Of a stretch of DNA of 64,000 nt, positions 44,036 through 56,588 are shown piece by piece; within the stretch, counting starts at the first letter, position 1, and each line of letters opens with the position of its first letter. This DNA comes from Ruminococcus sp. (GTDB lineage: Bacteria; Bacillota; Clostridia; Oscillospirales; Ruminococcaceae), in contig JAFXSC010000016.1 of the NCBI GenBank assembly GCA_017525915.1, positions 48,089 to 112,088 on the forward strand, in the 5' to 3' direction. Below the pieces are notes generated by a model. The model was given only the letters and a program-made list of their open reading frames with translations, was not told where the DNA came from and searched no databases. The position numbers were made by a program, and so were the translations under genes.

Positions 44036-44488
44036 CTAATTAACCTCCCCCTCAAACATCTCACCGTCAACGATACGGACAGTACGTTCCGCCCACTTGG
44101 CAACATTGAGATCATGGGTTATCATAACGATAGTATTGCCCATTTCGTGGAGCTTAGTAAAAAGCTTCAGCACCTCAGTACCGCTGTTCTGGTCGAGCGC
44201 ACCGGTAGGCTCGTCAGCAAGGAGAAGTGAAGGCTTGCTGCAAAGAGCTCTTGCAATTGCAACTCTCTGACGCTGACCTCCTGAAAGCTCCGAGGGCTTA
44301 TGGTGTATACGGTCAGAGAGCCCGAGCATATCTACTATCTCCCGACATTCTTTCTCAGCCGATCTTCTGTCCTGTCCGCGCATAAGGAGAGGCATTATAA
44401 TGTTCTGCATAACGGAATAAGTCGGGATAAGGTGGTAATTCTGAAATATGAACCCTATCTCCTGATTGCGTATCCTTACAAGCTCGCG
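44036..44488 (-). pseudogene. MacB-type ABC ATPase lacking its N-terminus (no Walker A)
   Basis: About 150 residues match a MacB/LolD-like ATPase from the Q-loop region on: RNQEIGFIFQNYHLIPTYSV, the signature ELSGGQRQRVAIARALCSK, Walker B LLLADEPTGALDQN, the switch His in MITHDL, and a normal end. The first about 75 residues, including Walker A (GxxGxGKS), are missing; the frame upstream of about 44490 has no homology and no good start. It looks like a truncated remnant, not able to bind ATP alone. Next to it are hairpins and tRNA-like fragments, suggesting a recombination scar. Confidence 0.7.
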
Positions 44489-44529
44489 TTCCTTACACAC
44501 ATAGGAAAAGATACAGCAGTAAAACAATA

Positions 44530-44555
44530 AAGGTCCCACAAAAATGTGAGACCTT
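44530..44555 (-). terminator. Hairpin upstream of the truncated ABC ATPase
   Basis: Minus-strand stem AAGGTCTCACA / TGTGGGACCTT with one U-G pair. It is followed by TATTGTTTTAC. Related to the hairpins at 43861 and 44624. Confidence 0.55.
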
Positions 44556-44561
44556 AAAATA

Positions 44562-44599
44562 ACACTATCATAACGCAAGCCGAACCATATGCGTCTGCC
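44562..44599 (-). other. tRNA-Leu-like fragment fused to a -10-like sequence
   Basis: Minus strand GGCAGACGCATATGGTTCGG followed by CTTGCGTTATGATAGTGT, the same join seen at 43893-43930. The tRNA promoter part is missing here. With the copies at 37191 and 43911 this makes a small family of tRNA-Leu pieces. Confidence 0.55.
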
Positions 44600-44663: not shown

Positions 44664-45749
44664 TCAGCTGCCGTGTATCATCTTATTTATCCGGCATCTG
44701 AGCGCATATATCTTATCCGAAGCAAAGCGGAAAGCGGACTTTGACTTGCGCCTGAGCCACTTGTAAGCCTTAACTACGAGCCATACCGCAGTCAGTGCCG
44801 GTACAGCAAGAATTACCCTCCGCACTGAATACATCACCGACAGCTTGTGTTCTACGATGCGCGAGGCGTTCTCCCAGAATGGAAGTTTTACCGCCTCATT
44901 CCGCACACCGGAACGGCTGAGATCTTTCGCCGCCTTTACACGGACAGAGGAGGAAAACCTGTCCGTGTTGTTGACGATCATGGCATTGTCACCGTAGCTG
45001 CTGAACAGCTTCTCGACCGCGTTATACCCGAAATTCTCGACCGGGTCGGGTACTATAACCTCATAGCAGCTCACCCTCCGGAACTGCTCTCCGGTGTCGG
45101 TGAGCTTTTCCGCCATTTCGTATGGGATGTACATCTTAGGATAGTCCCCGGCGCACTCCCTCTCGTATTTTGTCCGGGGATCGTCCACAACTCCGGCAAC
45201 TCTGAGCTTCACGTTATTGACATAGATGCTCATTCCGGCGATGTTTTCAGAACCGTAGAGCCTGAAAGCGAGCGCCCGGTCGATGACCGCGCCGTCCTGC
45301 ATGATATCCTTGTCGCTGATGTAGTTTCCACTCAGAAGGTCAAAGCTACGGAACAGGAAAAACTCGCCACCTACCGCCGTAATATCAGCCGGAGCTGAAC
45401 TCATGCGGTCACAGTTCACCTGAAACCTTCCTACCGGGGAGCTGTAAGCGTCCGGGCAGAGCGTTTTTCCGTCCTCGGGATAGACCGCCGCGGCTTCAAG
45501 GGAACTGAGCAGAGCGAGCCTTACCGATATCACATTATCCCTGATAAATCCGGAATCGTCCGCGAAAAAGCAGCTCACCTGCGTACAGCCGCCCCTGCCC
45601 TGCGTCCAGCGGTCGGCAGCGTAGTTGTACCTCTGCGACCTTGCCAGTGAATCACCTATGAGCGTGAGAATGAGCGCCGCTGTGAGGACTGCAACATTTG
45701 CCGCCGCAAGGACGATGTGCCTTATCTTTATCTTCTTCATAACCTTCAT
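44664..45749 (-). CDS. MacB-like ABC permease-type membrane protein, shortened
   Basis: This 361-residue protein has an N-terminal membrane helix (about 10-32), a large extracytoplasmic domain with the MacB periplasmic-core pattern (FDLLSGNYISDKDIMQDGAV, then IDRALAFRLYGSENIAGMSI and VNNVKLRVAGVVDDPRTKYE), and only one clear C-terminal membrane helix (about 310-330). Typical MacB permeases have three there, so it looks like a truncated or specialised version. It overlaps the adaptor gene stop (ATGA), so the two form a unit, but the ATPase partner next door is damaged. Possibly uses an ATPase encoded elsewhere. Confidence 0.72.
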   Translation of the reverse strand: MKVMKKIKIRHIVLAAANVAVLTAALILTLIGDSLARSQRYNYAADRWTQGRGGCTQVSCFFADDSGFIRDNVISVRLALLSSLEAAAVYPEDGKTLCPDAYSSPVGRFQVNCDRMSSAPADITAVGGEFFLFRSFDLLSGNYISDKDIMQDGAVIDRALAFRLYGSENIAGMSIYVNNVKLRVAGVVDDPRTKYERECAGDYPKMYIPYEMAEKLTDTGEQFRRVSCYEVIVPDPVENFGYNAVEKLFSSYGDNAMIVNNTDRFSSSVRVKAAKDLSRSGVRNEAVKLPFWENASRIVEHKLSVMYSVRRVILAVPALTAVWLVVKAYKWLRRKSKSAFRFASDKIYALRCRINKMIHGS

Positions 45750-47512
45750 TTTGATTTCAGACGGACCTGATCGCCCGGCTTGACAGGCTTGCTGAACGCG
45801 ACAATAACGCTGTCACTTCCCGATATATTGCCGGAGACCGCACTTGACGAATCGTCGGAGGCAAGCACCGTAACGCTCACCCTCTCCGCATAGTAGCGGT
45901 TGCCGAGGGGAGTATTCTTCGAGCGCACCTTGTACACAAAATCACCGTCCTGATCGCTGTATACCGCACTTTTCGGGACTATCGCGCTGTAATCGTCCTG
46001 CGAGAGCGGAATGGAAACTTCGAGATAGCTTCCGCCGGAGACCGCGCCCGTAACGCTGAACGTCATCACCCTTTTCGAGGGGCTTTCGGTATCGCTGCTG
46101 ATGTCGGACACGACCGCCCTGACATCGCCGCTCCAGTTGTTCACGACCTTTGCGGCAGTTCCGACATCGACCTTTGCCGCCTGTTCAGCAGTCACGGAAA
46201 CTTTAAGTTTGAAGCCTGCATTATCGAGGTCGATGACCGCGAGGGGAACACCGGCAGCGGTCATATCGTTGGGCTTGACGCTGACAGTCCGAACCGTTCC
46301 GCTGTACTTCGACACCACCTCAACAGGGGCACTGCTGCCGCGGAGATCTTCGATCGCCTGCTTTTTCTTCTCGATTATGCCGCGCTTGTTTTCGAGGTCG
46401 AGGTCGTACTGCTGCTGCGCGATATTGTTGGTATTCTGCGTTTTTGCGAGGTTTATGCGGAGATTTTCGAGCGTGCGCTGCTTCGCCTGAACGTCAGCAA
46501 CGCAGTCCTCATAGCTCATTCCGCCGGCAGGTGAACTGTTCTCGTATGCGGAAATGCGCGAATTTACGGTACTCAGCTTCGCCTCTGTATCGCTTAGCTG
46601 CGAGGCAAGTCCCGAACGTATTTCGCTCTTAGCTGTGTCGTAAGAGGACTTTGCCTCGTTTCTTTTTGCGTCCTTCGCATTGCAGTCTGCGAGGGCAGTT
46701 TCCGCGTCACCTGTGCCGACCGCCGATGTGTATATCTCATAGGCGGCAGAATATTCATTTTCCGCAGACTGCCAGCTATTTTTCAATGTTGGAAGGTCAC
46801 CCATGAGCTCTGCCGGAGCATTTGTATAGTCGTCCGAATCTATCGCATTTATGGCGGCAGTGAGCTTGTCCTTCTGAGCGGAAAGCCCTGCGGCTTCTTC
46901 CTTGTCGGATTTGTACTGAGCAAGCGCCTGAGCGGAGGAATTCTTCGCCGCCAATGCCGCGTCACGGCGTTGTATCGACTGTTCGAGGTCCTCGGCGGCG
47001 TTGCGTATCTCCTGATTCTCGGAGGAATAGTCCGCCGGAGCGTTCAGCAGCATTTTGCTGTACTCATATTCGAGCGCCGCAAGCTCGTCCTCAGCGGCAG
47101 TGAGCGACTGCTCCTTTCCCGAACCGAGAACGAACAGCACATCACCTTCCGTCACCTTCTGACCTGCCTTTACGCTGATAGTTTCGACGTTTCTGCTGCC
47201 GTCAAACGTCACTTCGTAGGACTGTTCCGCCTCCACAACACCCATACCGCGTATCCGCTCGGTGAGCTTTCCGGAGGTGACGCTCTGTGTGGTTATCTCA
47301 GCGAGGGCGCGGTTCATGATAGTATTCGAGAAAAACGTGAGAATGAGCATTGCCGCGAGAAAAACGATGAGCAGTGTTTTTATTATCTCCTTGCGCTTCC
47401 GCGGGTCCTTTGCCACAGTGTCCGCGCTGTTGAGCTTTTCGGTTATGCGGCGGACCTCCTCCTCAGATGAATGTATATCATTGCTTCCATTGTTCATTTC
47501 TGTATCTTTCAT
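45746..47512 (-). CDS. HlyD/RND-type membrane fusion (adaptor) protein
   Basis: This 588-residue protein has an N-terminal membrane helix (about 47-68) and a lipoyl-like half motif (VETISVKAGQKVTEGDVLFV). A long coiled-coil hairpin (about 135-385) rich in Ala, Glu, Lys and Ser follows, then the second lipoyl half (VVSKYSGTVRTVSVKPNDMT) and a beta-barrel/C-terminal part (SVTAEQAAKVDVGTAAKVV and PLSQDDYSAIVPKSAVYSDQ). It should bridge a MacB-type exporter in the envelope. It begins 11 bases after the MalG-like permease stop, which links an exporter adaptor to a sugar importer in one operon. Confidence 0.88.
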   Translation of the reverse strand: MKDTEMNNGSNDIHSSEEEVRRITEKLNSADTVAKDPRKRKEIIKTLLIVFLAAMLILTFFSNTIMNRALAEITTQSVTSGKLTERIRGMGVVEAEQSYEVTFDGSRNVETISVKAGQKVTEGDVLFVLGSGKEQSLTAAEDELAALEYEYSKMLLNAPADYSSENQEIRNAAEDLEQSIQRRDAALAAKNSSAQALAQYKSDKEEAAGLSAQKDKLTAAINAIDSDDYTNAPAELMGDLPTLKNSWQSAENEYSAAYEIYTSAVGTGDAETALADCNAKDAKRNEAKSSYDTAKSEIRSGLASQLSDTEAKLSTVNSRISAYENSSPAGGMSYEDCVADVQAKQRTLENLRINLAKTQNTNNIAQQQYDLDLENKRGIIEKKKQAIEDLRGSSAPVEVVSKYSGTVRTVSVKPNDMTAAGVPLAVIDLDNAGFKLKVSVTAEQAAKVDVGTAAKVVNNWSGDVRAVVSDISSDTESPSKRVMTFSVTGAVSGGSYLEVSIPLSQDDYSAIVPKSAVYSDQDGDFVYKVRSKNTPLGNRYYAERVSVTVLASDDSSSAVSGNISGSDSVIVAFSKPVKPGDQVRLKSK

Positions 47513-47523
47513 AAGTTCATCTC

Positions 47524-48414
47524 CTATCCCTTTATTCCGCCCGAGTAGGCGATGCCGTCCACAAGGCAGTCCTCGCCGTAGAGAAACATGAGCACGGTCG
47601 GTATCATGTAGACCACTCCGACCGCGAAGGCAAGTCCCACGTCACTGGTATTTATCTGCGAAAGGAACACCGACAGCGGGTGAAGTGCCTTTGCTTCGTC
47701 GCTCGTCATGAGAATGAGCGGCTGCTCGACCATGTTCCAGTAGTCGATGAAAACGAGCATGCCTATCGAGATTATCGCATTCTTGCACAGCGGCATATAT
47801 ATCCGCGTGAGTATCTGCAATTCGCCTGCGCCGTCGAGCTTTGCAGCTTCAACGTATGAAGCTGGCACTCTCCGCATGACCTTCGTGAGCAAAAATATAC
47901 TGAACGGAGAGAATATTGCAGGGAGTATAATCGCCGAACGCTTGTTGAGCAGATCGAACCGCTTCGCAACGAGGTAATTCGGCACAAGCGTGACCTGATA
48001 CGGCATTATCATGAGGATTATGTACGCGAAGAATATGATGCCCTTCACCTTCGAGGGATAGCGCGAGAAGCCGTATGAGGTGAGTATCGCGACAAGCAGC
48101 TGGAACACGGTTATCGGTACGGTCAGCCAGACGGAGTTCCAGAACTTGACAAGGTAGTCCGAATTTGTGATGAGGACGGAACGGTACTGGTCGAGAGTTA
48201 CCTTGTCGGGAATGAATTTAAGGTTGACGTCCCCGGAGATGTAGGTCTTTTCGCTGTCGGTCATGTTGCTGTACATAGCGCCGTAATTCGCCGATATCTC
48301 GCTCGAAGTCATGAACGAATTGGCAATAGTCAACACAGTCGGCAGGAGGAACAGGAGCGCTCCGAGTGCAACGATGACCGTCACGGTGATATTACTGATA
48401 TGTCTGCGCTTCAT
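47524..48414 (-). CDS. MalG-type sugar ABC transporter permease
   Basis: This 296-residue permease has six membrane helices and the EAA loop EAAKLDGAGELQILTRIYMP that docks on the ATPase. An extended extracytoplasmic loop follows the first helix (about 35-85). The start at 48414 overlaps the MalF stop (ATGA) and is preceded by GGAGAACTG; a frame extending further upstream is antisense to MalF coding sequence in another frame and is not used. It works with the MalF-like partner. No ATPase gene is nearby, so a shared MsmK-like ATPase is expected. Confidence 0.92.
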   Translation of the reverse strand: MKRRHISNITVTVIVALGALLFLLPTVLTIANSFMTSSEISANYGAMYSNMTDSEKTYISGDVNLKFIPDKVTLDQYRSVLITNSDYLVKFWNSVWLTVPITVFQLLVAILTSYGFSRYPSKVKGIIFFAYIILMIMPYQVTLVPNYLVAKRFDLLNKRSAIILPAIFSPFSIFLLTKVMRRVPASYVEAAKLDGAGELQILTRIYMPLCKNAIISIGMLVFIDYWNMVEQPLILMTSDEAKALHPLSVFLSQINTSDVGLAFAVGVVYMIPTVLMFLYGEDCLVDGIAYSGGIKG

Positions 48415-49298
48415 CAGTTCTCCACGTCCTTTCCGAAGATATTTTCCAGAATGAGGAGCACTGCCATTATCACTATCATGACGAGCGCGAACAGCACTGC
48501 CGCCGCGGAGAGCTTCTGGTAGTCGAGCTTGTTGAAGGTGTTGTTCATGAAATGCTGGAGCATATACAGCTTGTCGTAGGGGTAATTTCCGGTCAGAAGG
48601 TATACTTCGCGGAATATTTTGAACGAATTTATCAGTGAGAGAATGAATACGAAGAGTATAGTCGGTGAGAGGTACCGCAGCTTGATGTGGAAGAATTTGT
48701 ACCAAGCACCGGCGCCTTCAAGCTCGGCGACCTCCATCATATCGCGCGGAATGTTGCTGAGTGCCGCCATGAAAAGTATCATGTTGTAGCCGATGTTTTT
48801 CCAGAGGAACATGAGGATAATCACGACCTGCCCCTTTGTGGATTTGAGCCAGTCTACCGGTTCGCCGCCGAACATTTCCGCGACCTGATTGACCGTGCCG
48901 TGATTGTGGAACAATACCTGCCACACCAGCACGACCGATGCGGTCGGCACCATGAGCGGACTGAGGAAGAACGTCCGGAAGGCGCTTTTCCCTGGAATTT
49001 TCCGTTCGAGGAGGACTGCAAGTCCGAGGGCAAGAACTACCGCGAGGGGTACCGATATTGCCGAGAACATCGCTGTATTCCGTGCAGCCTTGCGGAAAGC
49101 GGTGTTGTGAACGAGCGCCTTGTAGTTGTCGAGCCCGACGTATTCCTTCGTCACGGGATTTTTTATTACGGAGTAGCGCACCACTATCCCGAAGGGTACA
49201 ACGAAGAATATGAGCACGCCCACAATGCTCGGGATAAGGCAGGCGTAGCTGAAAATCTTCTCGCCGCGCCGACCGCATTTGCCCTTCAATGATATCAT
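48414..49298 (-). CDS. MalF-type sugar ABC transporter permease
   Basis: This 294-residue permease starts MISLKGKCGRRGEKIFSYAC. It has about six membrane helices and the EAA motif EVAELEGAGAWYKFFHIKLR. It forms a heterodimer with the MalG-like protein. The only candidate binding protein nearby is the SBP-like domain of the protein encoded 180 bases upstream (49478-51166). Normal length for the family. Confidence 0.92.
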   Translation of the reverse strand: MISLKGKCGRRGEKIFSYACLIPSIVGVLIFFVVPFGIVVRYSVIKNPVTKEYVGLDNYKALVHNTAFRKAARNTAMFSAISVPLAVVLALGLAVLLERKIPGKSAFRTFFLSPLMVPTASVVLVWQVLFHNHGTVNQVAEMFGGEPVDWLKSTKGQVVIILMFLWKNIGYNMILFMAALSNIPRDMMEVAELEGAGAWYKFFHIKLRYLSPTILFVFILSLINSFKIFREVYLLTGNYPYDKLYMLQHFMNNTFNKLDYQKLSAAAVLFALVMIVIMAVLLILENIFGKDVEN

Positions 49299-49401
49299 TT
49301 CACCACTTCCTTTGCTGTTTAATACATTCTGTCCGAAGGGCGGAGACGTTGCACTCCGGAAGGCTCACCGCCGGAATTTTGTAGAAGTGAACAATTCGGC
49401 G

Positions 49402-49440
49402 CTTAGTTATTAGTGCATAGTGCTTAGTGCATTTGTAGGA
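49402..49440. repeat. Half-copy of the TTAGTGCATAG dispersed repeat
   Basis: CTTAGTTATTAGTGCATAGT followed by GCTTAGTGCATTTG, in the gap between the SBP-anti-sigma gene and malF. It matches one arm of the element at 19245. Confidence 0.6.
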
Positions 49441-49477
49441 ACGTCGTCCCCTGCAAGCAAATAATTACGCATTAAAA

Positions 49478-51166
49478 TCAGGCGTTCTCGCTCAGGAGGA
49501 TAGAACAGCGGCTCTGTATGCGCTCGGCAGCCTGTTTTGCGGTGCAGTCGCCGTGGAAATACGCGTCAGCCTCCTCCTTGCAGATGCTCATTATGTCGGG
49601 GGCGATTTCATTGTCAAGGGTATCGCAGGAGAGGAGATACCTCCGGTAGTCCTCTAATTCCTCATCGGTAGGAGCATAAAGTGTGGTGTCACGGTGCTCC
49701 CAATAGGTGTGGTCTGTCTTGACCCACTTTTGCTCCTCATCGCTGTATTCGTAGCAATATTTGTTCTGTTCGATCCATTCCTCAAAGCAGTCCTTTCTGA
49801 CGCGCATCTGCTGAATCGGAAATGCTTTTTTATAGTCAGGAGCTTCACCCGGCTCATGGTTCGCCTGTGTTTCCTTGGTGAAGAATTGACGGACGAACTG
49901 CCATGCGCCGTTCTTGTCGGAACAGGTATCAAGTATCGCAAATTCGCCGAGAGGTTCAATTTTTCCGCCGTGACCATCGCTTGTAGGCGCGCCGACAAAG
50001 GTAAAGTCCTCTCCGCCAAAATCAACATATTTAATACTGCTGAATTCGCTTTCCAATGTTCCGGAATATCCCATTATCATTCCCATGTAAAGCGGAGAGC
50101 GGTCGAGCTTAGTCCATGTTACTTTATCGCGCCAGTAAGCGTCAGCCTCAGCTTTATCCTCCGGTACATTCTGGCTTTCAGCGAAGCGGTTGCAGAATTC
50201 CAGAACCTTTACAAATTCATCGCTGTCAAAATAGCACTCAGCCTTGTCGTAGTCCACAAGCTCATTCATGCCGCGCACGATAATTTCGAGCAGCCAGCCG
50301 CGTGTTACACTGTCATAGAGGTGGTCGGCGGTTGCAGGGGCGCTGTCGAAAAACGCTATCATATCGTCAATGCTCCAGTTTTCCTTCTGACCGAACTTTT
50401 TCTTGACCACCATTGTATTTATCTGGTAGGTCGGCGCAAGGGAATAGAGCTTTCCGTCAGAGCTTTCAAAGGCTTTCAGCACGTTCGGAAGGAGGGTGTC
50501 CCTGTTTACCTCCGGGTCGTTCTCCATGAAGCTGTAAAGGTCGGCAAATGTACCCTTACTGCCGAGCGCATTGATGAGGCTGTGGTCACCTGTAAAGATG
50601 ATGTCGGGAGCATCGCCAGCGGCAATATCTATCTTCAGCTGACGCATAGCAGCTTCGCCGTAGGTACCGTTCTCAACGTCGTATTTGTGATAGTCCACAA
50701 GCTTGATAGTATAATCGTCCTGACCGCTGTTAAAAATATTCACCATTTTTTCATAGTCAGTAATACCAAAGATGAACGCCGCCGTGATGACGGTTTTCTC
50801 CTTCTTTTCGGGAGCGGTCGTACCCTCGCCGGTACTGTCAACGCTTGTGTAATAGCTGTCGCCGTTGGAGCTGCTTCCGCCGCCCTTTTTCAGGAGCGCC
50901 GCTCCGCCGATAACTCCGCCCACTAAAAGCAGGCAGGCTGCCGCTGTCATGGCAGGCTTTCTCCAGTTCTTTTTCATATTACCGTCAACACCTTTCAATA
51001 CATAAACTTCCTCTTCATAGGAAGCGTCGCCGCACTTCTGCTGTATTTTGGCAAAAATACGCCTGTCAGTCCTTTTGTCAACAGGCTTGCAGCGCTCCGA
51101 CAGATCGCGCAGGGTGCGGTCATCCGCATTATCAAAGACATCAAAGAGAATATTCTTTTTCTTCAT
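49478..51166 (-). CDS. Membrane SBP-domain protein, candidate anti-sigma factor 1
   Basis: This 562-residue protein has a cytoplasmic N-terminus (1-70), one membrane helix (about 71-92, AMTAAACLLLVGGVIGGAALL) and a large extracytoplasmic domain like an extracellular sugar-binding protein: VITAAFIFGITDYEKMVNIF, DIAAGDAPDIIFTG, a WSIDDMIAFF hinge region, and the typical SBP end AAERIQSRCSILLSE. It has no lipoprotein signal. The N-terminus shares FDVFDNAD and the EEVYVLKGVD..MKKN motif with the two paralogues (51842, 54957). It is encoded 4 bases after an ECF sigma factor, the usual place for an anti-sigma. I infer a sensor; it may also serve the MalFG permeases. The start at 51166 is chosen for its GGGAGTG ribosome site. 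Confidence 0.8.
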   Translation of the reverse strand: MKKKNILFDVFDNADDRTLRDLSERCKPVDKRTDRRIFAKIQQKCGDASYEEEVYVLKGVDGNMKKNWRKPAMTAAACLLLVGGVIGGAALLKKGGGSSSNGDSYYTSVDSTGEGTTAPEKKEKTVITAAFIFGITDYEKMVNIFNSGQDDYTIKLVDYHKYDVENGTYGEAAMRQLKIDIAAGDAPDIIFTGDHSLINALGSKGTFADLYSFMENDPEVNRDTLLPNVLKAFESSDGKLYSLAPTYQINTMVVKKKFGQKENWSIDDMIAFFDSAPATADHLYDSVTRGWLLEIIVRGMNELVDYDKAECYFDSDEFVKVLEFCNRFAESQNVPEDKAEADAYWRDKVTWTKLDRSPLYMGMIMGYSGTLESEFSSIKYVDFGGEDFTFVGAPTSDGHGGKIEPLGEFAILDTCSDKNGAWQFVRQFFTKETQANHEPGEAPDYKKAFPIQQMRVRKDCFEEWIEQNKYCYEYSDEEQKWVKTDHTYWEHRDTTLYAPTDEELEDYRRYLLSCDTLDNEIAPDIMSICKEEADAYFHGDCTAKQAAERIQSRCSILLSENA

Positions 51167-51170
51167 ACAA

Positions 51171-51728
51171 TCACTCCCGTTCATCATAACCGATCTCAGC
51201 CATCAGCTTTCTGAGCCTTTCGAGCGCACGCTGGAGCCGCTTCCGGACAGTTGCAGGCTTCATAGAGAGCCTTTTCCCTATCTGGAAGGAATTCATTTCA
51301 TACCAGCAGCTCATTAGGATTATTGTAGAATCCGGCTCGCCGAGCTCGTTGATCTTACTCAGAACTTCGCTGCAGCGCTGTCTGTTCTCAGCATCAGCCG
51401 CAACGTCAGCAGCATCAGCGATCATTTCATAGCCGCCGCTGTCGTTTTCATAGCCTGAGGAGAGCCGCCTGTAAAACTGAACAGCCTTTCGCTTTGCTAT
51501 CAGACCGGTCATGCCGCTGAGGTCGTCCATTTCGAAAAAGCGCTCAATATCCAGAAATATATCCGCAAACACATCACTGACGCATTCCTCAGTATCCTCT
51601 TTTGAGCCGTAGCTTCGCAGTCTGCTGTAAACTATGGTATACACATAGTTCTTGTACTCATCATAGAATGCCTGCTGAGCATCAAGCGGAGATTTCCGGA
51701 ACAGAGCCTTCAATTCACTTCCTGTCAT
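51171..51728 (-). CDS. ECF sigma factor 1
   Basis: This 185-residue ECF sigma factor has region 2 (about 15-85: FYDEYKNYVYTIVYSRLRSY and EECVSDVFADIF) and region 4 (about 125-180: INELGEPDSTIILMSCWYEM and a helix-turn-helix IGKRLSMKPATVRKRLQRAL). It is very close to sigma 3 (54381) and less so to sigma 2. It precedes the SBP-anti-sigma gene by 4 bases. A 16-bp palindrome lies 24 bases before its start. Sigma call firm; target promoters unknown. Confidence 0.88.
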   Translation of the reverse strand: MTGSELKALFRKSPLDAQQAFYDEYKNYVYTIVYSRLRSYGSKEDTEECVSDVFADIFLDIERFFEMDDLSGMTGLIAKRKAVQFYRRLSSGYENDSGGYEMIADAADVAADAENRQRCSEVLSKINELGEPDSTIILMSCWYEMNSFQIGKRLSMKPATVRKRLQRALERLRKLMAEIGYDERE

Positions 51729-51752
51729 TGTTATTCCCCTATATTAGATCAA

Positions 51753-51768
51753 TGAAAATGCATTTTCA
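51753..51768. promoter_or_regulatory. 16-bp palindrome upstream of sigma 1
   Basis: Perfect palindrome TGAAAATGCATTTTCA, 24 bases upstream of the sigma 1 start. A related palindrome (TATGAATGCATTCATA) lies 20 bases upstream of sigma 3. Both have the core AATGCATT. Candidate operator. Confidence 0.45.
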
Positions 51769-51841
51769 CTACCTACTATTGCTTTTTATCGGCAAAGTGT
51801 GACAAATAATATTTCAATTATGAAAAAACTGAAGATATGTC

Positions 51842-53581
51842 TCAGGAATTCTCGCTCAGGAGGATAGAACAGCGGCTCTGTATACGCTCGGCAGCCTGTT
51901 TTGCGGTGCAGTCGCCGCCGAGGACGTAATTTACCTCCTCTTTTATGATCTCATCTATCTCACCGTAGCTGTATGGCTCGACCTTGACAGTCTGGATATA
52001 GTTATAGAGCTGGTCGATACGCTCCTGTGTGATGAGCCTGCCGCTGCCGCTGCACATCGTGTTCTTTGCACTATCCCATGAGATACGCTTGGAGTAGATG
52101 CAGCTGTCTTTTTCCGTAAGCCTTGTATTGTACTGCTTATCGAGCACTGCCTTTGATACATTGCCTTCGCTGATAAAATAGCTGACAGCATCCCACGCGC
52201 CCTCCTTGTTAGAGGAGCTTTCCGGGATACCGTAAAGCAGCTGGAACTCCGTTACTGCTCCGTTCCCGTCACTGCTCGGATAGCCGACAAAGGTGAGGTC
52301 ATCCTCGCCGAATTCAGACCAGAGCTGCTGCCCCTCATAGCTCCCGAGACCGGTAATATACACTCCGCCAACAAGCGCTCTGTCGTTGAGCAGAGCCCAC
52401 TGAGCCGCCATAGAATAGCTGTCGAGCTCGCCTCCGCTCAATTCCGCGGCATTAAGTACATTGCTCTTGTCCGGGAAGCTCATTGAGTATTCAAGCGCAC
52501 TTATCATTGACGGGTCGCTGAAATTGCAGGTATTCTCCGCTCTGTCAACACAGTCGTTCATCAGCTTCAGCAGAGCGTAATACGAAATATTCTGGCGGTT
52601 GTCCTGATACGCGCCGTTCCACGATAAAAATGAGGCATTATTAAGTATATGCATACCCTCCGGAAGTGACTCTGCCGTTTCGATAAACTTATCTACTGTC
52701 CAGTTTTCGGCACTATTGCCCACGAATTTAGTTTTTGCAGCAGCCGTATATATCCGATACTCCGTGCCGATAGCCGGAAGTCTGCCGTCTATCTCAAAGC
52801 CCTCAAGCATATTCGGGAGAATGTCCACGCGCTCCAGTCCGCCGGGCTCGTCCATGAATGGGAACATATCGCAGAACATACCCTTATTGATAAGTGTGAA
52901 CATATTATCCGTATCGAATGCGATTATGTCCGGAGCATTGCCGGAGATGATGTCTCTTTGCAGCAGGCTGAACTCCTCGGCATAGCTGTCAGTGTAGCTG
53001 CTGCCTAATGTCCTGCCGCTCTTCTGCGAATAATTTACCGCTTCAAGCCAATAATCCTCCTGGCTCCTGTTGTAGTCACTGATCAGCTTTGCTGATGCTT
53101 CATTGATATTTGCCAAGCCGATAGTTACAGTCCGCCTGCCTTCCTCACCTTCATCAGCCACGCTTGCATAATAACTGTCCTCCGGCGCAGAGCTGTTTCC
53201 GCTGCTCTTTTTCAGAAGCGCCGCTCCGCCGATAACTCCTCCCACCAGCAGCAGGCAGGCTGCCGCAGTAACGGCAGGCTTTCTCCAGTTCTTTTTCATA
53301 TTGCTGTCAACTCCCTTCAATATATAGATCTCGTCAGTTTCGGGTTCCGGTTCAACCAAGCCCGTCAGTCCATGATATGCCGCAGACTTCTCCGCAGCCA
53401 TACTGAACATCTTCCCCTGCTCTCTGGTGTCTGCCGCCGGAACACCGGCTCCGTTCCTTGTTCTTTTCAACTTTTTCTGCGATACGAGCTGCTTTATTCT
53501 TTCAGTATCACAGGGGCAGTCCTTCAGCTCCGGCAGTTCTCCGGTATATCCGGAAAAAAGATCATATATGTTATGCTTCAT
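51842..53581 (-). CDS. Membrane SBP-domain protein, candidate anti-sigma factor 2
   Basis: This 579-residue paralogue has a longer cytoplasmic N-terminus (1 to about 102, with IYDLFSGYTG and MFSMAAEKSAAYHG), a membrane helix nearly identical to protein 1 (AVTAAACLLLVGGVIGGAAL), and an SBP-like domain: VTIGLANINEASAKLISDYN, then DIISGNAPDIIAFDTDNM and the AAERIQSRCSILLSENS end. Its last 70 or so bases match protein 1 almost exactly, a sign of recent gene conversion. It overlaps the end of sigma 2 by 11 bases, so the two are coupled. The start follows GAAAGGGG. Confidence 0.78.
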   Translation of the reverse strand: MKHNIYDLFSGYTGELPELKDCPCDTERIKQLVSQKKLKRTRNGAGVPAADTREQGKMFSMAAEKSAAYHGLTGLVEPEPETDEIYILKGVDSNMKKNWRKPAVTAAACLLLVGGVIGGAALLKKSSGNSSAPEDSYYASVADEGEEGRRTVTIGLANINEASAKLISDYNRSQEDYWLEAVNYSQKSGRTLGSSYTDSYAEEFSLLQRDIISGNAPDIIAFDTDNMFTLINKGMFCDMFPFMDEPGGLERVDILPNMLEGFEIDGRLPAIGTEYRIYTAAAKTKFVGNSAENWTVDKFIETAESLPEGMHILNNASFLSWNGAYQDNRQNISYYALLKLMNDCVDRAENTCNFSDPSMISALEYSMSFPDKSNVLNAAELSGGELDSYSMAAQWALLNDRALVGGVYITGLGSYEGQQLWSEFGEDDLTFVGYPSSDGNGAVTEFQLLYGIPESSSNKEGAWDAVSYFISEGNVSKAVLDKQYNTRLTEKDSCIYSKRISWDSAKNTMCSGSGRLITQERIDQLYNYIQTVKVEPYSYGEIDEIIKEEVNYVLGGDCTAKQAAERIQSRCSILLSENS

Positions 53582-54116
53582 ATCCGTAACCCCTTTCCGT
53601 AAGTTTTTCCCTGAGCCTGTTCCTTGCACGGTGAAGCGCAGTTGTGCAGGCAGACAGTCCTATTCCCATTTCCTCTGCTATCTGCGGCAGGCTCTGATAA
53701 TAGAAGTAGTACCTGACCAGCAGTTCCCTGTCACGGGGCTGCATCTCTGCTATCACACGGTTGAGCTCTTCCGTCAGGACTTTCCGCTCCGCCTCATATT
53801 CTATGTCCTGATCGTCAGCCGTTTCTATTTCATCGAGCGGAATGTGAAGATGCTTCGATCTCAGCCTGTCAATGGCAAGATTACGCGCTATGACCGCGAT
53901 ATATGACCTCAGCGTTTCCGTCCGGAGATGTCCGGCATTGTTCCATATCCTTATGAACACGTCCGAAATAACTTCCTCGCTGTCGCTGATGCCAAGAGTT
54001 CCGCCGGACACGTTCCTCACGATCGTGCTGACATATCCGCTGTACCGTTCTATCAGTGCGGCAAGCGCCTTTTCATTTTTCCTGTTGAGCTGGTGTACCA
54101 GCATTTTGTCATTCAA
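53571..54116 (-). CDS. ECF sigma factor 2
   Basis: This 181-residue ECF sigma factor has a region 2 with SEEVISDVFIRIWNNAGHLR and IAVIARNLAIDRLRSK, and a region 4 ending LPQIAEEMGIGLSACTTALH and RARNRLREKL. It differs clearly from sigma 1 and 3, although its SBP partner resembles protein 1. It is divergent from sigma 3 across a 264-base region with promoters for both. Confidence 0.88.
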   Translation of the reverse strand: MNDKMLVHQLNRKNEKALAALIERYSGYVSTIVRNVSGGTLGISDSEEVISDVFIRIWNNAGHLRTETLRSYIAVIARNLAIDRLRSKHLHIPLDEIETADDQDIEYEAERKVLTEELNRVIAEMQPRDRELLVRYYFYYQSLPQIAEEMGIGLSACTTALHRARNRLREKLTERGYGYEA

Positions 54117-54204
54117 CAGTACATTCCCCCTTTCTCCCTTCTGATATTATATACGGAACAAGTCCGCAAACTCTTACACTGTACCACAGCAGCATTTCAG
54201 TATT

Positions 54205-54233
54205 ATTCTTGCACAGGTGAATGGATTTGTCAA
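54205..54233 (-). promoter_or_regulatory. Possible promoter of the sigma 2 operon
   Basis: Minus strand TTGACA with a poor -10 (AAGAAT) at 17 bp, 89 bases upstream of the sigma 2 start. The strong -35 with a weak -10 could suit activation or another sigma. Confidence 0.4.
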
Positions 54234-54272
54234 GCTGTCAGGCTTCCGTCAGATCGTGCCGTCTCCTCCGGA

Positions 54273-54301
54273 TTGACTTGCACCAATGATTAATGTATAA
54301 T
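54273..54301 (+). promoter_or_regulatory. Sigma-A promoter of the sigma 3 operon
   Basis: TTGACT, 17 bp, TATAAT, 80 bases before the sigma 3 start. A housekeeping promoter on an ECF operon implies basal expression without self-activation. Confidence 0.75.
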
Positions 54302-54344
54302 AAAAAAATATGCTACACTTTCGCTGCTATTTGCGAATATGTAT

Positions 54345-54360
54345 TATGAATGCATTCATA
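54345..54360. promoter_or_regulatory. 16-bp palindrome upstream of sigma 3
   Basis: Perfect palindrome TATGAATGCATTCATA, 20 bases before the sigma 3 start and downstream of the promoter. Related to the palindrome at 51753. Confidence 0.45.
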
Positions 54361-54380
54361 ACCGGGGAAGGAGGGGCAAG

Positions 54381-54944
54381 ATGACACACAGCGAATACCG
54401 TTTGCTGCTGCGGACAGACAAAGAAAAAGCCCAGCGAAGGATCTTTGACGAATACTACAACTACGTCTACACGATAGTTTACAGCCGGCTGCGAAGCTGT
54501 GCCGCACGGGAAGACATTGACGAATGTGTGAGCGATGTGTTTGCTGACGTGTTTTCCTCATACGACCCGGACAAGCTCATAACCGGCGATATCAAGGGCT
54601 TTATCGGCATGATAGCCGGCAGGGACGCCACTGACTTTTACCGGCGCATCTGCAAGGCTCCCGTTACCCTGCCTATCGACGAGGAAGGGGCTGCGGAAAT
54701 ACCCTCCGGCGAAGATGTGATACAGGACTCCGAGCAAAAAGAGCTCCGCGCGATGCTTCTCGGAATTGTTGAAAGTCTCGGCGAACCGGATTCCACGATA
54801 ATCATACAAAAATATTTCTACAAGCGCACCTCAAAGGAAATAGCGGAAACTGTTCCCCTCTCCCCTGTCATGATAAGGGTAAGGAGCAGCCGTGCGCTCA
54901 AAAAGCTGCGGAAAATGCTGTCCGATAAGGACATCACGATATGA
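54381..54944 (+). CDS. ECF sigma factor 3
   Basis: This 187-residue ECF sigma factor is a close paralogue of sigma 1 (FDEYYNYVYTIVYSRLRSC and ECVSDVFADVF versus EECVSDVFADIF). Region 4 contains LGEPDSTIIIQKYFYKRTSK and a helix-turn-helix ending SRALKKLRKML. The ATG at 54381 has the strong site GGAAGGAGGGG; an upstream in-frame Met lacks one. Its SBP partner follows 12 bases later. Confidence 0.88.
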   Translation: MTHSEYRLLLRTDKEKAQRRIFDEYYNYVYTIVYSRLRSCAAREDIDECVSDVFADVFSSYDPDKLITGDIKGFIGMIAGRDATDFYRRICKAPVTLPIDEEGAAEIPSGEDVIQDSEQKELRAMLLGIVESLGEPDSTIIIQKYFYKRTSKEIAETVPLSPVMIRVRSSRALKKLRKMLSDKDITI

Positions 54945-54956
54945 ACGGAGGTCATT

Positions 54957-56588
54957 ATGAAAAAACATAACGGATTTGACTTGTTTGAAAATGCAGACAA
55001 GGATACAATTGAAAAGCTCTCCGCGCATCTCGGTGAGACCGGCGGCAGTGAGCGCGAGAAGATATACCGCATGGCTGTGAAGAAGTCAGCAGTCCGTCAG
55101 GGACAGTTCTGCGGCATCGAGCCGGCTTACGAGAACGAGGAGGTCTATGAACTGAAAGGAGTTGACTTCAATATGAAAAAGAACAGGCTAAAGCCATTCA
55201 TGGCGGCAGCAGCCTGCCTGCTCATAGCGGGCGCGGTGCTGTGCGGGACCGCCCTTATCAGGCACAGCGGAAAGAAAAATGACTCTGAGTATTATTCAAA
55301 CATTGCCGCTACGGACGAAAACGGAAAGACTATACTCAAAGTCGCTTATGTTGCATTGGGCACTGACACAGATTTCAGCGGATTCAGGAGTATAATCAGC
55401 GATTTCAACGCAAGCAGCGATTCCTATAAGGCAGAGCTTGTTCCTTACAGCAACGAGGAGGGACACAGTGCCATTAACAAGCTGAATGAGGACCTTGCTG
55501 ACGGGATAGTGCCCGATATCATCTGGGCTGAGCCATGCAAGCTCAGAACACTCTACGACCACGGCTATCTTGAAGACCTCAATAATATGATAGACAATTA
55601 CAACGGCATCAAGCGCAATGAAATAGTCCCGTCGCTTCTGAATGTAATTACCATTAACGGTCATATTCCGTGCATACCGGACAGTATTCACGCACAGACC
55701 TACTGTATGGAGACCTCTCTGCTCGGTGAGGGCATCACAAACTGGAACTTTGAGCAAGCAGTAAAGCTGTACAACAGTCTCAGTGAGGACGACAAAAAGC
55801 ATTTCTTAGAACTTAATGCCTACAACGACAGTGAATTAAACATCTTCTGGAGTTCAAGAAGAGAAACGCTTGCAGATTATTTCATAACCGGCGGTATCAT
55901 AAGCAGCATGGACTATGAGAATTACGAATTCAAGCCCGAGAACGGTCTGCGGCAGGCTCTCGAATTCATATACTCACTTCCTGACGACTCAAACGAATAC
56001 GATGAACCGGATCTCACATTCCGCCGCCCTGTCCTCACAAACGCATATGTTTCCGTATGTTCAAGCTATTCCACGCACGCAATAGGATATCACGGCGGAA
56101 ATGATATCTCCCTTGTCGGCTATCCGACTGAAAACGGTACCGGAGTTCTTGGCAGCAGCTACCTCGGTATCGGCATTATGAAGAACTGCCCTTCAAAGCA
56201 GGGCGCATGGGACTTCATCAACTACACCGCGATAACAGGTGACGACCAATACAGGACGCCTACAAGCAACCTTCCGCTGCGTGCAAGCCTCTACCAAAAA
56301 GACTATGAAGCTGATAAGATGTCAAAGAGCTCGATAAACTGCGGTATGACAAAAGACGGCGGACTCACCTTTGACCAGAATGAGATCGCTTTCTATATCA
56401 CCGAGTCACAGAAGCAGCAGCTGAAGGACTATATCGATTCCCTCGATTTCACCATTTATCAGGACGAGGAGATAGAAAATATTATCCGCGAGGAATGCGC
56501 CTATGTCGTGCGCGGCGAACGCACCCCCGACCAGTGCATATCCATACTCACCGACCGAATAGGGACTTATATTGACGAAAACAGATAA
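54957..56588 (+). CDS. Membrane SBP-domain protein, candidate anti-sigma factor 3
   Basis: This 543-residue paralogue has a cytoplasmic N-terminus (1-78: FDLFENADKDTIEKLSAHLG and KIYRMAVKKSAVRQG), a membrane helix (about 80-101), and an SBP-like domain: LKVAYVALGTDTDFSGFRSI, then NEDLADGIVPDIIWAE and the NCPSKQGAWDFINYTA region. The C-terminal helix is more divergent (QCISILTDRIGTYIDEN). No transporter gene follows, so it cannot be a dedicated transport component here, which favours a sensing role. It uses the same sigma/SBP order as the other two but on the opposite strand. Confidence 0.8.
   Translation: MKKHNGFDLFENADKDTIEKLSAHLGETGGSEREKIYRMAVKKSAVRQGQFCGIEPAYENEEVYELKGVDFNMKKNRLKPFMAAAACLLIAGAVLCGTALIRHSGKKNDSEYYSNIAATDENGKTILKVAYVALGTDTDFSGFRSIISDFNASSDSYKAELVPYSNEEGHSAINKLNEDLADGIVPDIIWAEPCKLRTLYDHGYLEDLNNMIDNYNGIKRNEIVPSLLNVITINGHIPCIPDSIHAQTYCMETSLLGEGITNWNFEQAVKLYNSLSEDDKKHFLELNAYNDSELNIFWSSRRETLADYFITGGIISSMDYENYEFKPENGLRQALEFIYSLPDDSNEYDEPDLTFRRPVLTNAYVSVCSSYSTHAIGYHGGNDISLVGYPTENGTGVLGSSYLGIGIMKNCPSKQGAWDFINYTAITGDDQYRTPTSNLPLRASLYQKDYEADKMSKSSINCGMTKDGGLTFDQNEIAFYITESQKQQLKDYIDSLDFTIYQDEEIENIIREECAYVVRGERTPDQCISILTDRIGTYIDENR

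Follow-up and report, generated by a model that had tools for sequence, protein, structure and literature searches.

In FecI/FecR/FecA-type signalling, a transporter component doubles as the input to a pair formed by an anti-sigma factor and an extracytoplasmic function (ECF) sigma factor; the receptor there, FecA, is an outer-membrane transporter in its own right. The locus analysed here lies in a 64,000-nucleotide stretch of a Ruminococcus sp. draft genome (G000; assembly GCA_017525915.1, contig JAFXSC010000016.1, positions 48,089 to 112,088 of the forward strand), called the window, and coordinates below are those of the window. It holds three ECF sigma genes (Sig1–Sig3), each followed by a gene for a membrane protein (AS1–AS3) in which the solute-binding protein (SBP) domain of a transporter is, in contrast to FecA, covalently part of the putative anti-sigma factor. 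Sequence comparison makes it probable that each AS protein is a membrane anti-sigma factor that holds the sigma factor encoded next to it and senses through an SBP ectodomain captured from elsewhere.

Among the closest described systems are SigI/RsgI of Clostridium thermocellum (PMC12203970), alternative sigma factors with single-transmembrane (TM) anti-sigma factors whose N-terminus is cytoplasmic and whose ectodomains are exchangeable and often related to carbohydrates, among them carbohydrate-binding modules (CBMs), GH10 and peptidase-like domains. That layout recurs in the window, as does the presence of several paralogues in one cellulolytic Firmicute. Unlike SigI, the sigma factors here pass the ECF model; unlike RsgI, the N-terminus has no Pfam RsgI match, the ectodomain is a transporter SBP rather than a CBM, glycoside hydrolase (GH) or peptidase-like domain, the operon continues with permease genes, and no autocleaving periplasmic domain came up in the Pfam scan, the only way in which one was looked for. 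The ECF30 pair SigV/RsiV and the DUF4179 anti-sigma factors (PMC6066255) are likewise a Firmicute ECF with a single-TM anti-sigma factor and share a weak DUF4179 similarity with the proteins here; they differ in that DUF4179 stays below the Pfam cut-off in the window and that the ectodomain is unrelated to lysozyme binding. For ECF52/53 proteins, predicted hydrolase and carbohydrate-binding domains are mentioned in a review (PMC10766802). Anti-sigma factors bearing CBM or enzyme domains as sensors are already known; a transporter SBP in that role appears, on weak evidence, to be new, and no anti-sigma factor built from a transporter SBP was among the matches listed in the open-licence PMC literature.

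Sigma factors and their membrane-bound partners

The three gene pairs are as follows.

51171..51728 (-): Sig1, ECF sigma factor, 185 aa; PF08281 5.7e-8; PF04542 9.5e-4, below the Pfam cut-off; TIGR02937 above cut-off
49478..51166 (-): AS1, putative anti-sigma/SBP fusion, 562 aa; TM 74-92; PF01547 1.3e-8; N-terminal profile 4.3e-34 (the AS1 row is in the profile)
50948..51166 (-): residues 1-73, the cytoplasmic N-terminus of AS1; candidate for sigma binding, common to partners of other sigma factors
50891..50947 (-): AS1 transmembrane helix, by hydropathy
49481..50818 (-): AS1 SBP ectodomain; positions 7-443 of the 444-position lipoprotein SBP profile, 424 bits; 57/64 conserved positions
53571..54116 (-): Sig2, ECF sigma factor of another type, 181 aa; PF04542 9.9e-10, PF08281 3.3e-10
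51842..53581 (-): AS2, putative anti-sigma/SBP fusion, 579 aa; TM 104-122; PF13416 5.2e-7; first ~40 residues like Sig2-type partners in two relatives, G299 and G392
53273..53581 (-): AS2 cytoplasmic N-terminus, residues 1-103
54381..54944 (+): Sig3, ECF sigma factor, 187 aa; PF04545 5.2e-6; region 2 below the Pfam cut-off; TIGR02937 above cut-off
54957..56588 (+): AS3, putative anti-sigma/SBP fusion, 543 aa; TM 83-101; PF13416 1.4e-9; N-terminal profile 9.8e-32 (the AS3 row is in the profile)
54957..55202 (+): AS3 cytoplasmic N-terminus, residues 1-82

With matches to sigma-70 regions 2 and 4, lengths of 181–187 aa and no region 3 match listed in the Pfam scan, Sig1–3 have the make-up of ECF sigma factors; region 4 was above a Pfam cut-off in all three and region 2 in Sig2 only, and all three scored above the cut-off of NCBIfam TIGR02937 (sigma70-ECF). 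The Sig2 gene as listed starts with TTG, its true start being uncertain, and its product is 80–82% identical to the counterparts in G299 and G392. Sig1 was among the 13 genome matches to Sig3 with E ≤ 1.4e-29 (Sig3 itself counted).

AS1 starts 4 nt after its sigma gene, AS2 11 nt inside and AS3 12 nt after, and each protein consists of an N-terminus of 73–103 residues, a basic NMKKN segment, one hydrophobic helix and an SBP domain. Genes directly downstream of a sigma gene whose products have the N-terminus inside and a single TM helix are the layout of membrane anti-sigma factors, this topology being taken from hydropathy and the basic flank only. PF01547 or PF13416 was above cut-off in each of AS1–3, and all six fusions known here (AS1–3 and three from relatives) matched at least positions 9–443 of the 444-position lipoprotein SBP profile with 212–424 bits, so by profile the ectodomain is a full-length, two-lobe family-1 SBP domain. 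A PS51257-like lipobox was found in the first 140 residues of 0/6 fusions and in 5/5 related SBP lipoproteins tested. Coordinates, TM helices, Pfam matches and the missing lipobox thus bear out the sequence-only reading, which had seen three sigma genes each directly followed by a gene for a single-TM/SBP protein without a lipoprotein signal.

The shared N-terminal motif LKGVD.NMKKN, also noted in that reading, is real, and the N-terminus that contains it recurs beside other sigma factors in proteins without an SBP. (The second segment it reported for all three proteins, (M)AxxKS, is present in AS2 and AS3 and absent from AS1.) A genome search with AS3 returned the three proteins of the window and four more sharing the N-terminal part (query residues 1–129, in one case to 235). 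Searching the genome with Sig3 gave 16 sigma-like places, at 15 of which the next gene encodes a single-TM protein of the AS layout; [VLI]-x-GV[DE] stands right before the TM helix in 14/15 partners, and VSGTE in the remaining one. Twelve of the 15 partners are without an SBP, the SBP search of G000 having returned only AS1–3, and because these twelve carry the N-terminus beside a sigma factor, it is tied to the sigma factors and not to the SBPs. A profile of the N-terminus, built mostly from G000 rows, matched at least 16 places in G000 and, in a sample of 297 genomes of the taxonomic family, had a match in at least 18; given the latter count the N-terminal family looks lineage-specific, and it looks expanded in G000. 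Five of the twelve partners without an SBP were scanned against Pfam, and one has a type I dockerin (Dockerin_1 1.5e-16, a cellulosome part). This candidate, at L033:1940-3487 of the same genome, would tie an anti-sigma factor to the cellulosome.

The N-termini co-vary with their sigma partners and the ectodomains do not. Over 19 pairs, sigma identity and N-terminus identity were correlated with r=0.56 (0 of 9999 permutations as high), and over the 15 pairs of the genome itself with r=0.38 (32 of 9999). A natural swap is seen in G299 and G392, where the sigma factors are Sig2-type and the first ~40 residues of the partners AS2-type, and the ectodomains are nearest to AS3. The DNA of AS1 and AS2 has two blocks in common, one of 146 nt at 86% identity (50868-51013 / 53190-53335, roughly AS1 residues 52-99 and AS2 residues 83-130) and one of 76 nt at 96% (49478-49553 / 51842-51917, the C-terminal end of each protein), and most of the remaining protein is ~30% identical. 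These blocks are probably due to recent homogenisation of the paralogues by gene conversion that spared the N-terminal parts, which would account for part of the likeness between AS1 and AS2. Because the swap keeps the first ~40 residues with the sigma type and the homogenisation spares the N-terminal parts, we infer that sigma specificity would reside in those residues.

Searches for a described anti-sigma domain in the N-terminus gave results that speak against the anti-sigma assignment: no zinc-finger anti-sigma domain, RsgI N-terminal domain or DUF4179 matched above the Pfam/NCBIfam cut-off, and the N-terminal profile gave chance-level matches only against PDB sequences (best E 0.088). DUF4179 showed a weak similarity at the TM segment in 4/17 rows (best E 0.023, below the Pfam cut-off). 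The lack of a match to a known anti-sigma domain would suit SBPs tethered for transport only, the N-terminus being a plain membrane anchor and the sigma factors merely regulating the operons, as would the full length of the SBP domains and the adjacency of one of them to MalF- and MalG-type (MalFG) permease genes in each of four genomes. That alternative is nevertheless quite improbable, given that twelve sigma-paired proteins without an SBP have the same N-terminus, that the N-terminus co-varies with the sigma factor, and that no permease gene lies beside AS2 or AS3.

The MalF operon and the proposed capture of SBP domains

AS1 is followed by four genes of one operon, whose order is conserved in relatives.

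48414..49298 (-): MalF-type permease; PF00528 1.7e-18; 179 nt after AS1
47524..48420 (-): MalG-type permease; PF00528 2e-10
45746..47512 (-): HlyD/membrane-fusion-type protein; PF13437 8.3e-7
44664..45749 (-): MacB periplasmic-core-type (MacB_PCD) protein with two TM helices; PF12704 9.6e-9

A close MalF is found in 113 of 125 genomes of the genus, and genes of the MalG, HlyD and MacB_PCD types follow MalF in 75/80 named loci (automatic gene calls). Sixty further MalF loci were taken from the upper part of the list, G365 and G400 being passed over. At 55 of them the row MalF-MalG-HlyD-MacB_PCD ends in an SBP gene, whose product in most cases has ~800 aa and carries the SBP in the C-terminal half (within this set, MalF of L164 was missed by the gene caller and the SBP frame of L197 has only 424 aa). 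The five without a 3′ SBP gene are G371, the C74 locus of G392, G351, G345 and G350, the G350 region ending too early, and G371, G351 and G345 have 3, 9 and 10 SBP-family matches elsewhere in the genome. Outside the 60, L097, L098 and L101 also carry the 3′ SBP gene. The ~370-aa N-terminal part of the 810-aa SBP lipoprotein at L097:5578-8010 has no Pfam match, and the fusions hold the SBP half only. No fusion appeared upstream of MalF in any of the 60 loci (44 nt upstream seen in L192, at least 300 nt in the others).

The order sigma–fusion–MalF–MalG was found in four operons, those of the window, G395, G392 (contig C89) and G299, with 12–179 nt between fusion and MalF. None of the three readable fusion operons (window, G395, G299) has an SBP gene after MacB_PCD, and the C89 contig of G392 ends 237 nt after the MacB_PCD gene. 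Although the genome is a draft in 67 contigs, the same gene order in three other assemblies makes chance neighbourhood or an assembly chimaera extremely improbable. The association between carrying a fusion and lacking the 3′ SBP gene was put to a Fisher test (p 1.2e-4), which was discarded: one truncated locus had been omitted, G392-C89 had been counted and the carriers are related.

The genomes were also searched with the SBP half of the L097 protein, every candidate being scored. Only fusions were returned from G000 (3/3) and G299 (1/1), and from G392 one fusion and one lipoprotein. The earlier suggestion that the first SBP may also feed MalFG gains support from this and from the fusion directly before MalF in three other assemblies. 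At its sensitivity the search turned up no SBP of the family in G000 apart from the fusions, for which reason AS1 plausibly also serves the permease. The lack of a separate family SBP in G000 and G299 favours such a dual role, the boldest part of the proposal. The stronger form of this idea, in which a single polypeptide is the importer's only binding protein as well as the anti-sigma factor of the importer operon, so that transcription would read every capture or transport event directly, and was built more than once through a stage of separate neighbours, can be held only tentatively. A different reading takes the engagement of MalFG by the tethered SBP, and not free ligand, as the signal, so that flux or permease level would set sigma activity; the position of the fusion immediately before MalF in each of four genomes and the lack of a separate family SBP in two agree with it, and two of the three pairs in the window, which have no adjacent permease, do not. 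As the whole explanation it is rather unlikely, and it is compatible with a captured SBP sensor, of which it could be the trigger step.

Arrangements with separate, neighbouring genes were seen in several genomes. In L216, a second MalFG operon of G392, a sigma gene (66% identical to Sig3) is followed by a 415-aa anti-sigma protein with another ectodomain, an SBP lipoprotein and MalF, the separate lipoprotein gene ending 1 nt before MalF. In L305 (G263, another genus), a 315-aa anti-sigma-like frame overlaps an 812-aa SBP gene, and in L311 (G395) an SBP gene of 697 aa comes after a partial frame that by eye looks like an anti-sigma ectodomain. At L231:4322-6700, recorded as R. flavefaciens MA2007, sigma and anti-sigma genes with no SBP part stand 1.2 kb before MalF in an operon that retains its 3′ SBP lipoprotein.

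An SBP tree of 55 rows was computed from the six fusions, 46 of 73 SBP lipoprotein rows (some chosen, some random) and three added SBPs, with two long-branch rows removed. AS1 grouped with an 808-aa G395 lipoprotein (100/99), whereas the remaining five fusions fell together with three lipoproteins from G135 and G019 (100/99); a single clade of fused SBPs was rejected (p-AU 1.0e-5). Because of this rejection, anti-sigma modules and SBPs of the family would have been joined on two or more occasions, unless a single fusion was followed by swaps or losses of N-termini. The series from a separate 3′ SBP through an SBP beside an anti-sigma factor to a fused one makes domain capture directly testable.

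Two observations concern the neighbouring genes. Beside the MacB_PCD gene, an ATP-binding cassette (ABC) ATPase frame (44036-44578) covers only 55-136 of 137 positions of ABC_tran, the N-terminal part of the domain missing. The operon at 44664-49298, like those of L097, L098 and L101, joins permeases of the sugar-importer type to parts of efflux machines of the HlyD and MacB_PCD types.

State of the SBP domains and their ligand

Conservation was scored at the 64 positions shared by 70% or more of 51 SBP lipoproteins (two long-branch rows included), which themselves keep a median of 57 (range 43–61). AS1 keeps 57, AS2 49, the G395 fusion 45, AS3 38, the G299 fusion 36 and the G392 fusion 35. 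For G299 versus G392, the ratio of nonsynonymous to synonymous substitution rates (dN/dS) was 0.21 in the ectodomain, 0.45 in the N-terminus, 0.18 in the sigma factor and 0.05 in MalF; the ectodomain is under purifying selection in this one pair. The closest solved relative is CbpC of C. thermocellum (PDB 7x0o; E 3.7e-38 with the SBP-family profile, near full length), a separate binding protein without an anti-sigma part, unlike the fusions.

A number of results weigh against a ligand-sensing anti-sigma fusion or its double use. AS3 and the G299 and G392 fusions (38, 36 and 35) fall below all 51 lipoproteins, and because so few SBP-conserved positions are kept, ligand binding is doubtful in these three; the divergence of the G299 domain (36/64) also speaks against a dual role. 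For CbpC, tested sugars were not bound and the pocket was blocked, contradicting an earlier report of binding, according to PMC9601137. G395 has, beside its fusion, two SBP lipoproteins, one of which heads the same gene row. The MalF proteins of the fusion carriers are 84–86% identical to that of the window, and because the carriers are related, their synteny cannot be counted as independent cases. The anti-sigma-like gene of L305 had no sigma gene called next to it, and no MalFG genes were found in the fetched surroundings (L095, L096) of the G135 and G019 lipoproteins. As the domains of AS2, AS3 and the three relatives are nearest to those lipoproteins, AS1 alone is nearest to the 800-aa SBP type. 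The single-polypeptide form of the dual role is slightly weakened by the end of the G392 contig and by the neighbours of L095 and L096. Lastly, MalF could be transcribed on its own from a sigma-70-like promoter match that lies within the end of AS1 (49617-49590).

The fused domains could on such grounds be decayed SBPs, acting as inert ectodomains or responding to the state of the envelope and not to a solute. The 35–38 of 64 positions kept by the AS3-type domains and the report that CbpC does not bind sugars (PMC9601137) fit that possibility, which is unlikely overall: AS1 keeps 57/64, the lipoprotein median, and the ectodomain dN/dS is 0.21 in G299 versus G392. Since the nearest solved protein is reported not to bind sugars, the label "sugar" is uncertain for the fused SBPs. 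A mutant in transporter C is reported to grow normally on glucose, cellobiose and Avicel (PMC9601137). The proposal of sugar capture in a fibre degrader accordingly fares unevenly: the relatives are assigned by their records to Ruminococcus, several of them to R. flavefaciens, and a paralogue carries a dockerin, which agree with it, and the CbpC report does not. The anti-sigma factor with an SBP sensor, by comparison of sequences, is well supported by the sigma-paired family, the co-variation and the repeated fusion. As a whole, the sequence-only interpretation is partly supported.

Proposed mechanism and upstream motifs

In the proposed mechanism, the short cytoplasmic N-terminus would hold the sigma factor, the predicted single helix would span the membrane and the full-length family-1 SBP domain would lie outside. 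The ectodomain is homologous by sequence to SBP lipoproteins of the genus, including those of the MalFG-type ABC transporter, and would have been captured from them. The ectodomain would change when it binds a ligand or when, once liganded, it docks on the permease, and by analogy to RsgI and RsiV this would lead to regulated intramembrane proteolysis that frees the sigma factor. Judging from the shared upstream motifs, the freed sigma factor would transcribe its own operon; the Sig1 transcript could run through AS1 into MalF-MalG, and the MalF-adjacent fusion probably also serves the permease. If this is so, the bacterium would need no separate sensor to gauge exactly the nutrient that its transporter takes up, and such sensors could find use as modular solute-responsive switches.

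The upstream motifs in the window are as follows.

51765..51800 (-): ACACTTT-N24-RTGAA before Sig1; promoter-like, the pattern being derived from these same upstream regions
54315..54350 (+): ACACTTT-N24-RTGAA before Sig3; promoter-like, derived in the same way
54145..54178 (-): different motif before Sig2; by eye, its G299 and G392 orthologues have it upstream as well

ACACTTT is present in 8/20 sigma upstream regions (5 of the 20 being from relatives), the shuffle maximum being 3.76 on average. Genome-wide, the full motif gave nine matches, six upstream of sigma genes of this family and three in or beside unrelated genes, and a reversed-pattern control gave four; the six matches at sigma genes and the two in the window are there by construction. 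As the full motif was read off the sigma upstream regions, the ACACTTT count is the independent support for it. These data would agree with autoregulated ECF sigma factors, each type with its own promoter. For the 179-nt gap from AS1 to MalF, the coding strand had no terminator-like site listed.

XAA motifs like those of RsgI that are read by ClpXP were seen in the TM helix of 14/15 partners with a loose pattern and no control, and were not used as evidence. The genome has a gene of the site-2-protease family (PF02163 2.5e-62), as do all 14 control genomes.

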